From positions 1-32,248 of IMG/VR virus record IMGVR_UViG_3300043427_003151: 32,248 nt of DNA. One strand, written 5' to 3'. Made by a program: the position numbers and the translations under genes. Below the pieces are notes generated by a model. The model did no database searches and was not told the DNA's origin. It saw nothing but the letters and a program-made list of their open reading frames with translations. Position 1 is the first letter of the stretch. Each line of letters begins with the position of its first letter. This stretch comes from a virus. Shown here piece by piece: positions 15,895-23,796 of this stretch.

Positions 15895-16121
<227 letters not shown>

Positions 16122-19931: not shown

Positions 19932-20624
19932 TCAGCCTAGGCTACTCTCAGCTCGGCGCTTGGCGGAGCCGTGAGCGAGGAATCCGATGATAATACGCTT
20001 GCCACGCTTGTGACAGAGCATACAACTAGAGCATGTTTTCGTATTTTCCCGCTGCGCGGGGCAGACTAGCACTACGTTGCCGGCTGGCGTGTGCCAGGAA
20101 GTGCGCGATTCTCCGGAAGACACTACCATCACCGCCGGCAATCCTGCCGCAATAGCATCATCGGCCGCAGTTTCATTCTCGGTCGAAACATTGATCGTAA
20201 ACCCCTGCCGGTTAGCCTGTTTAATCAGGCTAAGGTTCTCACCTAATGTGAGGCTGTGGTGAGTGTAAGTGTAGGCTTTAAGATGTTTCACGGCGGCGAT
20301 CATGCCGCGCATGAATGCGCGCGAGATTCTGCCTCCAGTGTGCGGCAGATCGCCAGCTTGATTGTGTCGGAGAGGCATCCCTGCAGGAAGTCGCCTGAGA
20401 GCGGCCAGGAAGGCTCTGAAGGGCACGCCACGGCGCCCATCGGTCACCTCCCGCCAGTGGAGCGCGAGAGGCCCACTAGCCGCGTAGCACCCGCCGCCAT
20501 TCTCAGGAGAGAAAGGACATGACGGCGGGCAGGTGGAGCGACTGGAAGTCGTAACCGGCATCGGACCCGTCTTGACGTTGCTAGAAACCGGCGTCAGATG
20601 AAAAAACAGGTCGGAGAGTTTCAT
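19932..20624 (-). CDS. Cys-rich conserved phage/plasmid protein (DUF7227/GP88-like)
   Basis: A 230-residue protein: SSNVKTGPMPVTTSSRSTCP, CPFSPENGGGCYA, LRHNQAGDLPHTGGRIS, TYTHHSLTLGENLSLIK, VVLVCPAQ, TCSSCMLCHKRGKRIIIGF and LAHG. I recall this order from a conserved family on phages and plasmids (DUF7227; resembles phage GP88). Eight or so cysteines in two groups suggest an Fe-S or zinc site. Activity is unknown; a redox or radical-type enzyme is possible but unproved. I start at MKLSDLF (20624), right after a CT tract; the longer frame only translates that tract. It stands alone between two repeat regions. Confidence 0.7.
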   Translation of the reverse strand: MKLSDLFFHLTPVSSNVKTGPMPVTTSSRSTCPPSCPFSPENGGGCYAASGPLALHWREVTDGRRGVPFRAFLAALRRLPAGMPLRHNQAGDLPHTGGRISRAFMRGMIAAVKHLKAYTYTHHSLTLGENLSLIKQANRQGFTINVSTENETAADDAIAAGLPAVMVVSSGESRTSWHTPAGNVVLVCPAQRENTKTCSSCMLCHKRGKRIIIGFLAHGSAKRRAESSLG

Positions 20625-20661
20625 GGAGAGAGAGAGAGAGAGAGGGAGAGGGAGAGAGAGG
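20625..20661. repeat. GA/CT simple-sequence tract as 5' leader
   Basis: On + an almost pure GA/GGGA run; on the minus strand a CT tract ending directly at the ATG of the Cys-rich gene. Length changes here could alter translation. Confidence 0.85.
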
Positions 20662-20721
20662 TCAGTTCTCGAACGGCTCATCCCATACGACCGTCTGACC
20701 GGAAGCGGTCTGGCGCTGCGC

Positions 20722-20752
20722 GGGGCGTGTGGGGCGTGTGGGGCGTGTGGGG
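20722..20752 (+). repeat. Four G4 runs in a 9-bp minisatellite (G-quadruplex motif)
   Basis: GGGG occurs at 20722, 20731, 20740 and 20749, separated each time by CGTGT. This fits the canonical G-quadruplex pattern with four tetrads and 5-base loops. Confidence 0.85.
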
Positions 20753-20875
20753 CTCTGCCAGCGAGGGGACTGAGCGGGCAGACCGTTGGCGCCCATTGGC
20801 CAATACCCCATGAGAGTGGTGTCTTCCATGATGAGAGGGAGAGGGAACAGAGCGGCTCAGAGTCATCTCCGATTC

Positions 20876-20887
20876 GCTGACGTCAGC
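20876..20887. repeat. 12-bp perfect palindrome
   Basis: GCTGACGTCAGC is its own reverse complement. It may be a dimeric protein site; it lies outside any called gene. Confidence 0.7.
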
Positions 20888-21152
20888 TTGCCGTCACACC
20901 GCCACCACGGCGCCGCATCGTAGGACGGTTTCTCGACTGGCACACTAGGCCGCAGAGTGGGCAGGTTCCAGCCATGGCCGCTTGTCTAGCACTGTTTGCA
21001 TCCTGCAGACTATCGGCAGTCAAGAATTGAACAGAGTGGTTAGGCTATCTCACCGCACCACGATCACACGCTCTCAGCATGCCGAACCGTTCGGGCAGGT
21101 AGGCTATCTCAACACACCGATGCGGCACCTAGCACGGATCGACGCCACCGCG

Positions 21153-21171
21153 ACGGATTGTCACAATCCGT
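21153..21171. repeat. 19-bp perfect inverted repeat (operator-like)
   Basis: ACGGATTGT-C-ACAATCCGT: two 9-bp arms around one central base, the usual form of a repressor operator. It lies 27 bases before the 48-bp repeat array. Confidence 0.75.
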
Positions 21172-21197
21172 TGCAAAGGTTTCCCCATCGGCGAACC

Positions 21198-21411
21198 GTA
21201 CTGATCACCATTGCTTGTCGATCAGGATTGCTGATCATTCGGGCAGGATTGATCAGTATTGCTTGTCGATCAGGATTGCTGATGTTTCGACCAGGATTGA
21301 TCAGTATTGCTTATCTGATAAGGGATGGTGATGTTTCGGGCAGGAACGATAAGGATCCCTTATCGATAAGGAATGCTTATGTTTCGGCCGGCAACGATAA
21401 GCTCAGCTTAT
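21198..21411. repeat. Degenerate ~48-bp tandem repeats with changing inverted repeats
   Basis: Units at 21198-21245, 21246-21293, 21294-21342 and 21343-21390, then a partial fifth. Each ends near TTTCGGGCA or a variant. Early units contain GATCAG-GATTG-CTGATC, while later ones contain CTTATC-T-GATAAG, CCTTATCGATAAGG and ATAAGCT-C-AGCTTAT. Both arms change together, so the dyad is kept while the sequence drifts. Confidence 0.85.
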
Positions 21412-21414
21412 GAT

Positions 21415-21530
21415 ACAAACGTACTACAGTACAAACGTACTACAGTACAAGTGTACTATAAGCTCAGCTTATGTTACAGATAAGCCAGGCTTATGTTACG
21501 AAATGTTACGAAATGTTACGAAATGTAACG
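21415..21530. repeat. 16-bp and 10-bp tandem repeats with dyads (iteron-like)
   Basis: ACAAACGTACTACAGT occurs at 21415 and 21431, with a partial third copy. ATAAGCTCAGCTTAT at 21458-21472 repeats the one at 21397-21411, and ATAAGCCAGGCTTAT follows at 21480-21494. GTTACGAAAT occurs at 21495, 21505 and 21515 and closes with GTAACG. Short direct repeats beside palindromes resemble replication-origin iterons or partition sites. Confidence 0.85.
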
Positions 21531-21577
21531 ATTGCGAATGATTCTCAATAGCAAGAAGCCTCTGGCTGGGTGTTTAG

Positions 21578-21664
21578 ATACGCCTCCAGCCGGTTCTCAT
21601 ACGCCTCTAGCCGGTTCTCATACGCCCCTGGCCGGTCCCGGTTTAGGCATCTGGCCGGTTCTTC
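21578..21664. repeat. 21-bp tandem repeats
   Basis: Three units at 21578, 21599 and 21620 built on ATACGCCTCYAGCCGGTTCT, and a degenerate fourth to 21664 that reaches the stop of the gene at 21663. A related CAGCCGGTTCTC / CTGGCCGGTCC pair lies at 26023-26046. Confidence 0.85.
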
Positions 21665-21956
21665 AGTGGCCTCTACGACCCCCAGCGAACCGGCCTACAT
21701 AGGCATTCCACATGCCAATGGGCATGTCACCCGGCCTGTAAAGCACATAGCCTCCATCCTCTACTCCCAGCTCAGCGTCATGAAGCCACATGCCGCTGCA
21801 TTTGCCTTCCCCGCTGAAAAGGCCAATTTGCCTTTCTCTATCACGCATGGACAGGCGAACGTGAAACAACACCTCCCGTAGGAGCACTGCCTGATAGACG
21901 CCTTGCGAGGGAGGAAAATCCTCCCCATTGGGCTGATAGGTGCGGATTGTCACCAT
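21663..21956 (-). CDS. Hypothetical protein
   Basis: A 97-residue protein (VTIRTYQPNGEDFPPSQGV, EVLFHVRLSMRDRERQIGLF). The ATG lies inside the last codons of the upstream gene, overlapping by 7 bases, which supports translation. Its 3' end touches the 21-bp repeats. No family is recognised. Confidence 0.55.
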   Translation of the reverse strand: MVTIRTYQPNGEDFPPSQGVYQAVLLREVLFHVRLSMRDRERQIGLFSGEGKCSGMWLHDAELGVEDGGYVLYRPGDMPIGMWNAYVGRFAGGRRGH

Positions 21957-22102
21957 TGATCATCCCCTTCACTGTCTTCAATTATCTCTACGAAATACGG
22001 CCCCATGGCCGCATAGGCTTCATGAAGCTCAGCTTCTTCGCCCTGGTGAAGAGTGTAGTCTTCAAAGCCTTCTTCGTTCCAGAAGTGCCAACAATCAGAC
22101 AT
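21950..22102 (-). CDS. Small acidic protein
   Basis: A 50-residue, very acidic protein (MSDCWHFWNEEGFEDYTL, IIEDSEGDDQW). It starts 3 bases after the upstream stop and overlaps the next gene, so it is the middle of a three-gene unit. The charge could mimic DNA, as in some phage inhibitors of DNA-binding proteins; this is speculation. Confidence 0.55.
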   Translation of the reverse strand: MSDCWHFWNEEGFEDYTLHQGEEAELHEAYAAMGPYFVEIIEDSEGDDQW

Positions 22103-22707: not shown

Positions 22708-23718
22708 TCAGGCCGCCAAGGCCAGAGCATGGGCCTTGGTGATGGTGGCAGCTCCAGTGCCCCACCATTGGCTCTCCAAGCGCCGCCTGGCGGCTTCCAG
22801 GTCGTTGCCACGGCCTGCTTCATGCGTCACCCACTCCGTCACGGCATTGTAGGCGCCCCAGTAGGTGCCTACAACGCCTTTGATGTCGAAGCCGATGCCG
22901 TCGCCGGCAAACTTGTTCGCCAGGCTGTCCCACTGGGGCAGATCGCCCAACACCTTCGGGCGAGCAGTGGCCTTGTCGCCTCGCTTGTCGTTCACCACGC
23001 CAGCAAGCTGCTGGCTGAACACATCGCGGCAGTATTGAGCGAACTGAGCAGAGGTGCAGGGCTTTGCGGCCATTGCTTCCAGCTCTGCCAAGCCGGCAGT
23101 GAACTGGCGCCGCTTGATGTCGATGATCTCTGGCAGGCGTTCGATCATGGCGTTGCAGTTGAGCGTGTGGCGAATGCTGATGCGCTTGCCCTTAGCGTTG
23201 GCATCGGAACGATCAGCGAGGCCCAAAGCGGCGCTGAGCGTGTTCTGGCACACCACGCGCACTGGCGTGAAGAGAGTTTGGAAGGCGATGGAGCCGTCGT
23301 GGCTGGTGGCTCCCACAATGTATTGCTCTATTTCATCGCCCTTCACCACTTCGCGGGTGCTGTCGTTAATGCGAGCCGTGAAGGTGACTTTCCGGCCTTT
23401 ATCAAGCACGCACACGGCGCTCATTTCTGCATCTTCGTGCAGGGCCTCGGCTAGGCGAATGAGCTGTTCGTTCTGGACGATGGTGTAGCTTTCCTTCTGA
23501 ACGGAGAGCACTTTTCCATTGTCCCCGCGAGTGATGGCCTGGTAGCCCTCGATGGGCTGGCCAGTGGGATCGAGAATGGGCGTGGAAAGCACTTCCCAGT
23601 CAGCCTGGCCGAGAGCGAATGCTTCACGGGCAGGCATGGTGCCGCCTGCTACATGGCCGAGACCGTGCCAGGCGGCTTGACCATGGAAGAAAGCACCGGA
23701 AGAGAATTGATGAGCCAT
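22708..23718 (-). CDS. DUF932 / phage-plasmid-like protein (TIGR03299-like)
   Basis: A 336-residue protein: FFHGQAAWHGLGHV, YQAITRGDNGKVLSVQKESY, RKVTFTARINDS, FTPVRVVCQNTLSAALG, IRHTLNCN and a C-terminal GTYWGAYNAVTEWVTHEAGR. This matches DUF932 proteins of phages and plasmids (TIGR03299). Their role is unknown; some are called LGT_TIGR03299. It is full length for the family. The ATG at 23718 follows a pyrimidine-rich leader and promoter B1. A terminator hairpin follows the gene. Confidence 0.88.
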   Translation of the reverse strand: MAHQFSSGAFFHGQAAWHGLGHVAGGTMPAREAFALGQADWEVLSTPILDPTGQPIEGYQAITRGDNGKVLSVQKESYTIVQNEQLIRLAEALHEDAEMSAVCVLDKGRKVTFTARINDSTREVVKGDEIEQYIVGATSHDGSIAFQTLFTPVRVVCQNTLSAALGLADRSDANAKGKRISIRHTLNCNAMIERLPEIIDIKRRQFTAGLAELEAMAAKPCTSAQFAQYCRDVFSQQLAGVVNDKRGDKATARPKVLGDLPQWDSLANKFAGDGIGFDIKGVVGTYWGAYNAVTEWVTHEAGRGNDLEAARRRLESQWWGTGAATITKAHALALAA

Positions 23719-23743
23719 GGGAAAGAAAAGAGGAAGGGAAAGG

Positions 23744-23796
23744 GCGGGGTCGAGCCGCTTGATGGAGAATTTAGCCTCTATTGCGAGAAAAGTCAA
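23744..23796 (-). promoter_or_regulatory. Promoter and hairpin leader B1 (DUF932-type gene)
   Basis: Minus strand: TTGACT (23791-23796), a 17-base spacer with TTTCTCGCAATAG, TAAATT (23768-23773), then a leader with GCGGCTCGACCCCGC (23744-23758), which is a slightly eroded copy of the B2/B3 hairpin. Confidence 0.75.

Follow-up and report, generated by a model that had tools for sequence, protein, structure and literature searches.

The intergenic DNA of cyanophages carries sites for the host regulator NtcA, and Pho-box searches have been made there too (PMC3037559). In the temperate phage GIL01, host LexA is found at the SOS boxes of promoter P1 (PMC4551915), while arrays of transcription-factor decoy sites have been engineered in E. 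coli (PMC7826281). Among host elements, PMC13249358, with Bolay et al. 2022 as cited there, describes the operators of RbcR (CbbR) at RuBisCO and CCM genes, with the site ATTA(G/A)-N5-(C/T)TAAT lying ~90 nt upstream of the start site. Here we analyse a locus in the viral IMG/VR record IMGVR_UViG_3300043427_003151, positions 1 to 32,248 (hereafter the window, 32,248 nucleotides), where putative operators of several host regulators are joined in a single array.

Like the cyanophages with NtcA sites, the window appears to hold intergenic recognition sequences of host global regulators. However, the NtcA sites were scored beside genes as promoters, whereas the window joins at least three putative regulator classes in a single tandem array, for which no promoter was found. 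With GIL01 it would share host LexA as the intended ligand of phage DNA, but in GIL01 the mapped promoter has one box or two, and the window has three tandem LexA boxes within a multi-regulator array. The likeness to RbcR operators lies in a palindrome with a 5-bp centre and T-N11-A, and in a host element placed ahead of the carboxysome/RuBisCO operon. A single full site was seen in each csoS1 promoter examined, whereas the phage has up to ten, and the phage half-sites read ATAAG or ATCAG instead of the ATTAG of the published operators. The E. coli decoys are comparable as sites meant for regulator titration, but they are man-made, whereas a natural phage array would address several regulators at once. 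No natural phage decoy array was described in the literature searched, most subscription journals lying outside the search. What differs from known systems is the presence of several regulator classes in one tandem array, with many copies of one class.

The window's products include an endolysin, a sigma-70-family factor, a dCTP deaminase, a RusA-like resolvase and an Erf-like annealing protein. The array occupies a ~1-kb non-coding gap with the DUF7227 gene on one side and ORF21663 on the other, the DUF7227 start being ~580-600 bp from the nearest site. Site classes were recognised first by eye and tested afterwards: D, the 17-bp dyad GATMAG-N5-CTKATC; L, GTAC-N4-GTAC; H, HLR1-like repeats; F, written as TTGAGAATNNNTCKCAA; and C, AGCCGG repeats. 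Their order in the window is DDDDDDDD-LLL-DD-HHH-F, followed by the C repeats, so that the feature reaches past position 21530, where the earlier note had ended it.

About 19932..20621, minus strand: DUF7227 protein gene (Pfam PF23872, E = 1.6e-76, and synteny), a conserved flank of the array.
21202..21412, plus strand: D block, eight good 17-bp dyads (starts 21220, 21251, 21268, 21299, 21317, 21348, 21365 and 21396) and one degenerate dyad at 21203; putative operators of host RbcR (LysR-type).
21412..21457, plus strand: L block, three putative LexA boxes 16 bp apart, the one at 21412 degenerate and two intact (AGTACAAACGTACT, 21428-21441; AGTACAAGTGTACT, 21444-21457).
21457..21495, plus strand: two further D dyads, TATAAGCTCAGCTTATG at 21457 and GATAAGCCAGGCTTATG at 21479.
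21495..21532, plus strand: H block, GTTACGAAAT three times (21495-21524) and then GTAACGAT, with a 10-bp period.
21532..21549, minus strand: F, Fur-like box, TTGAGAATCATTCGCAA on that strand.
21578..21663, plus strand: C block, four 21-bp AGCCGG repeats, ATACGCCTCYAGCCGGTTCTC.
21663..21956, minus strand: ORF21663, a small, conserved and syntenic gene with its 3' end towards the array.
22708..23796, minus strand: DUF932 gene, the next conserved neighbour.

Repeats of other kinds were also observed. The hexamer GCCGTA stands in about 29 tandem copies between two ORFs (window 15928-16099, 89% match) and its plus strand could be read as Ala-Val repeats. Immediately before the DUF7227 start lie 3.6 copies of GGGGCGTGT and a GA-rich tract (window 20722-20753 and 20626-20660), and in relatives the region upstream of DUF7227 is occupied by GAAAG-rich tracts. 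A degenerate ~30-bp repeat family (e.g. TTAGCGCGAAACAGTAGGCATCAC), for which we have no candidate regulator, occupies part of the interval from the dyads to DUF7227, both in several relatives (L004:1700-1860, L023:4630-4830, L083:6380-6500) and at 21036-21115 of the window.

The repeats reported in the earlier note are real, comprising a ~48-bp array at 21202-21387, 16-bp repeats at 21414-21445, the three GTTACGAAAT copies, and ATAAGC dyads at 21397, 21458 and 21480. Each 48-bp unit consists of two D dyads, and spacing in the D block alternates between 17-18 and 31 bp, start to start, and the spacer is of the TTCGGGCAGGATT type. The three L boxes account for the 16-bp repeat, which is their period. 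The window has about ten D dyads, and a search for GATMAGN5CTKATC with at most one mismatch returned eight in 21190-21680, where 500 dinucleotide shuffles gave 0.004 on average. They share the palindrome AT(N)AG-N5-CT(N)AT with T-N11-A that characterises RbcR operators. One dyad pair folds better as RNA than its shuffles (z -2.8), but the half-sites show no covariation.

The array had been read as a single one drifting stepwise, with both arms of each dyad changing together. A trend from C/G to A/T does run through the window, but 3 of the 10 units are mixed (GATCAG..CTTATC, GATCAG..CTTGTC and GATAAG..GTGATG), and when 62 distinct dyads of the window and related contigs were pooled, the A or C of the left half-site was independent of the T or G of the right one (24/15/17/6; Fisher p = 0.41). 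Compensated change of the two arms is therefore not supported. A dimeric binder that accepts either A or C at one position would permit such a mixture, and the units do look like putative sites for a dimeric binder, as had been suggested. Instead of one drifting array, the locus appears to be a composite of operator classes in a conserved order, and the comparative evidence agrees with the further suggestion that different units may serve different proteins.

The D class has a candidate counterpart in host promoters. We rejected the exact sequence GATAAG-N5-CTTATC as a common host site, its frequency being near chance in Cyanobacteriota and in the alpha-cyanobacterial family. One exact D match in a host precedes csoS1, which opens the carboxysome/RuBisCO operon, by 128 bp, and a D-like site is present in all 12 of the csoS1 promoters taken from alpha-carboxysome genomes, at -125 to -129 apart from one at -88; one of these promoter 17-mers is identical to window 21396-21412. 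Since random 350-bp windows score at least 10 of 12 in 4.9% of cases and at least 11 in 0.3%, single csoS1 cases are modest, and the weight comes from the presence of the site in all 12 promoters and from its constant position, though the genomes are related. A symmetric dyad profile, whether derived from the window's own dyads or from those of relatives with the window excluded, ranked the csoS1 promoter site first in G140, a 2.27-Mb alpha-cyanobacterial genome and the sole host genome scanned whole; a site upstream of psbA came 7th or 3rd with the same two profiles. BLAST of the array against the host genome likewise placed the csoS1 promoter first (43 nt, 77%, spacer included), with a weak E of 0.16, and the second-best match was dismissed as lying within a coding region. 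Both the dyad geometry and the position of the csoS1 site are those of the published RbcR motif. RbcR-like dyads were also noticed ~140-165 bp upstream of psbA in two cyanobacterial genomes (L092; G140, position 1411695).

For the L class, the boxes at 21428 and 21444 fit RGTACNNNDGTWCB, and the class matches the published cyanobacterial LexA consensus, AGTACWNWTGTACT (PMC3091678). AGTACAAATGTACT occurs in many relatives. With the LexA-class profile, recA ranked 5th, lexA 6th and a umuD-like gene 8th in G140, and lexA promoters bear GGTACAAATGTATT or near variants. We consider it very probable that the D sites are RbcR operators and the L sites LexA operators. The host itself is presumably cyanobacterial, as suggested by the csoS1 match and by the window's sigma factor, which on our own reading of its sequence we take to be cyanobacteria-like.

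Assignments for the remaining classes are less firm. The H block tentatively resembles the HLR1 (RpaB) box, (G/T)TTACA(T/A)(T/A) repeated with a 2-bp gap; at position 6 the window carries G where the box has A, and the exact box occurs in relatives L022 and L081 (GTTACAAAATGTTACAAA in the latter). In Cyanobiaceae genomes HLR1 was without enrichment, with fewer matches than the reversed control, and the H class had zero matches in G140. Strict HLR1 matches in the phylum-wide set were discounted as support, since they fall mainly in genomes of 1.7-2.0 Mb, which, judging from their genes and general knowledge of the phylum, we presume may be non-photosynthetic Cyanobacteriota. In such small genomes (L134, L137, L141, L142 and similar; 1.7-2.0 Mb), a sequence that matches the phage L022 H repeat exactly, GTTACATTTCGTTACATT, is repeatedly found 60-100 bp ahead of the genes for related proteins of ~480 aa.

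The F box matches the Fur-family 7-1-7 palindrome TGAGAATNATTCTCA with one mismatch, and the perfect Fur-type TGAGAATCATTCTCA occurs in relatives L004, L022 and L081. Phylum-wide the palindrome was found 27 times versus 5 for the reversed control, several of the sites lying upstream of what we take, from our own reading of the sequences, to be COG0523-type GTPases. In G140 an unsymmetrised profile placed a ZnuA-like gene first and a symmetric profile gave no sensible matches; with a strict box in 1 of 101 host-family genomes, host support for the Fur class in the likely family appears weak. The C class was rejected as a host site because G140 holds no match. Its last copy forms one arm of a terminator-like hairpin in folds of relatives L022 and L023, and in the window the AGCCGG block folds no better than shuffles (z -0.95).

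The arrangement of ORF21663, array and DUF7227 is syntenic across dozens of viral contigs, while array composition varies. The viral relatives with a composite array are all metagenomic contigs. Contigs with relatives of DUF7227 and DUF932 share the gene order RlpA-like, ORF23830, DUF932, ORF21663, array and DUF7227, and the array order D, then L/H, then F, then C. ORF21663 relatives were found by tblastn on the relatives' loci (38-50% identity, syntenic), and a pattern search for them found none. Every syntenic contig has the array on the 5' side of the DUF7227 gene, 600-1190 bp from its start. No similarity was found between the array DNA and named phages.

A scan for D pairs only, blind to the other classes, recovered 55 viral stretches, compared with an estimated one or so by chance; these are mostly non-coding and at the array locus, and most are beside L boxes. 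After clustering of near-identical arrays, an L box lay within 200 bp in 27 of 43 D-array clusters, and L density on the same contigs was 1.99 per kb near dyad arrays versus 0.011 per kb elsewhere. A de novo count of gapped palindromes ranked GTAC-N4-GTAC first (37 of 73 arrays against 0.9 expected) and TAAG-N5-CTTA second; the 73 arrays had been picked with the D, L and F patterns, so this count is not independent, unlike the D-only scan. For the earlier note, relatives without the array or its dyads would have counted against its reading. The syntenic array and symmetric sites are kept, but the class of site is swappable: in L060, whose DUF932 is 88% identical to that of the window, the slot is filled with seven to eight tandem Fur/Zur-type boxes only (L060:5139-5410; TGAGAATCATTCTCA variants).

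As the best explanation, to which we give roughly even chances of being right as a whole, we propose that the locus is a composite array of host global-regulator operators that fills non-coding space flanked by two conserved phage genes. Read from the left, the array would offer about ten RbcR/CbbR (carbon-fixation regulator) sites, three LexA boxes, a row of RpaB/HLR1-like half-sites and one Fur-family box, before AGCCGG repeats of no assigned role. As infection multiplies the phage DNA, these promoter-less sites would bind and titrate the host regulators, lowering RbcR-activated transcription of carboxysome and RuBisCO genes and relieving LexA- and Fur-type repression. If the titration is quantitatively sufficient, the cell would be reprogrammed without a phage protein, to the benefit of the phage.

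The main rival is control in cis, a possible though rather doubtful reading in which the same host regulators drive or silence a phage transcript, either that of the leftward DUF7227 operon or a short RNA running to the right across the AGCCGG repeats, and the phage thereby reads carbon, DNA-damage, light and metal status. The position of the array 5' of DUF7227 is consistent with it, as are the precedents of cyanophage NtcA sites (PMC3037559) and of LexA at GIL01 P1 (PMC4551915) and the terminator arm formed by the last AGCCGG repeat in L022 and L023. In the isolated cyanomyovirus DSL-LC03 (OR003938; L347:4955-5075), two adjacent RbcR-like dyads stand directly before promoter-like sequence and upstream of a small unannotated ORF starting ATGACCCGC, beside the DUF7227 gene, and therefore regulation is favoured over titration at least in that phage. 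For the window, titration is favoured over promoter control because no sigma-70-like promoter was found in 20600-22000, because the distance to the DUF7227 start is large and variable, and because the two longest array-bearing records examined (74 kb and 69 kb) each confine their exact dyads to a single cluster. As many as ten sites of a single class also exceed the usual needs of a promoter.

It is improbable that the sites serve phage-encoded regulators and merely resemble host operators. The HLR1-like and AGCCGG classes are without a convincing host counterpart, and among the window's products are a sigma-70-family factor and a small protein that matches an HTH weakly; however, no LysR, LexA or Fur homologue was found among the window proteins scanned, and such regulators would leave unexplained why a phage-dyad profile ranks the csoS1 promoter first and a LexA-class profile ranks recA and lexA highly. 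The origin, partition site or hairpin-DNA element initially proposed is very improbable. It would suit the iteron-like look of the tandem repeats, their position in a non-coding gap of ~1 kb, the AT-rich stretch that follows the H repeats in L080 and L083, and the single such locus per ~70-kb record, but the dyads and LexA-type sites match host promoters, the dyads are unlike iterons or parS, the half-sites vary independently, L060 carries Fur-type boxes only, the adjacent genes are DUF7227 and ORF21663 and not an initiator gene, and the GC skew fluctuates in the window with no convincing switch at the array and a sign change about 1 kb away.

Beyond this window, we suggest, with somewhat less than even confidence, that syntenic arrays of operators for several regulators (RbcR, LexA, Fur/Zur and perhaps RpaB) are widespread cyanophage DNA sponges with a lineage-dependent mix, which, once amplified by replication, would reduce carbon fixation and release the regulons for repair and metal uptake, with no phage protein involved. 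Cyanophages lower host CO2 fixation while the light reactions are kept running, which is usually explained by phage proteins such as CP12. If the window holds an RbcR operator array, it would provide a protein-free route to lower host CO2 fixation, and several regulators would be addressed at a single locus that is recognisable in metagenomes from its sequence alone. Whether sponge or sensor, such an array would make predictions directly open to test and would help to infer the host circuits that a phage targets.
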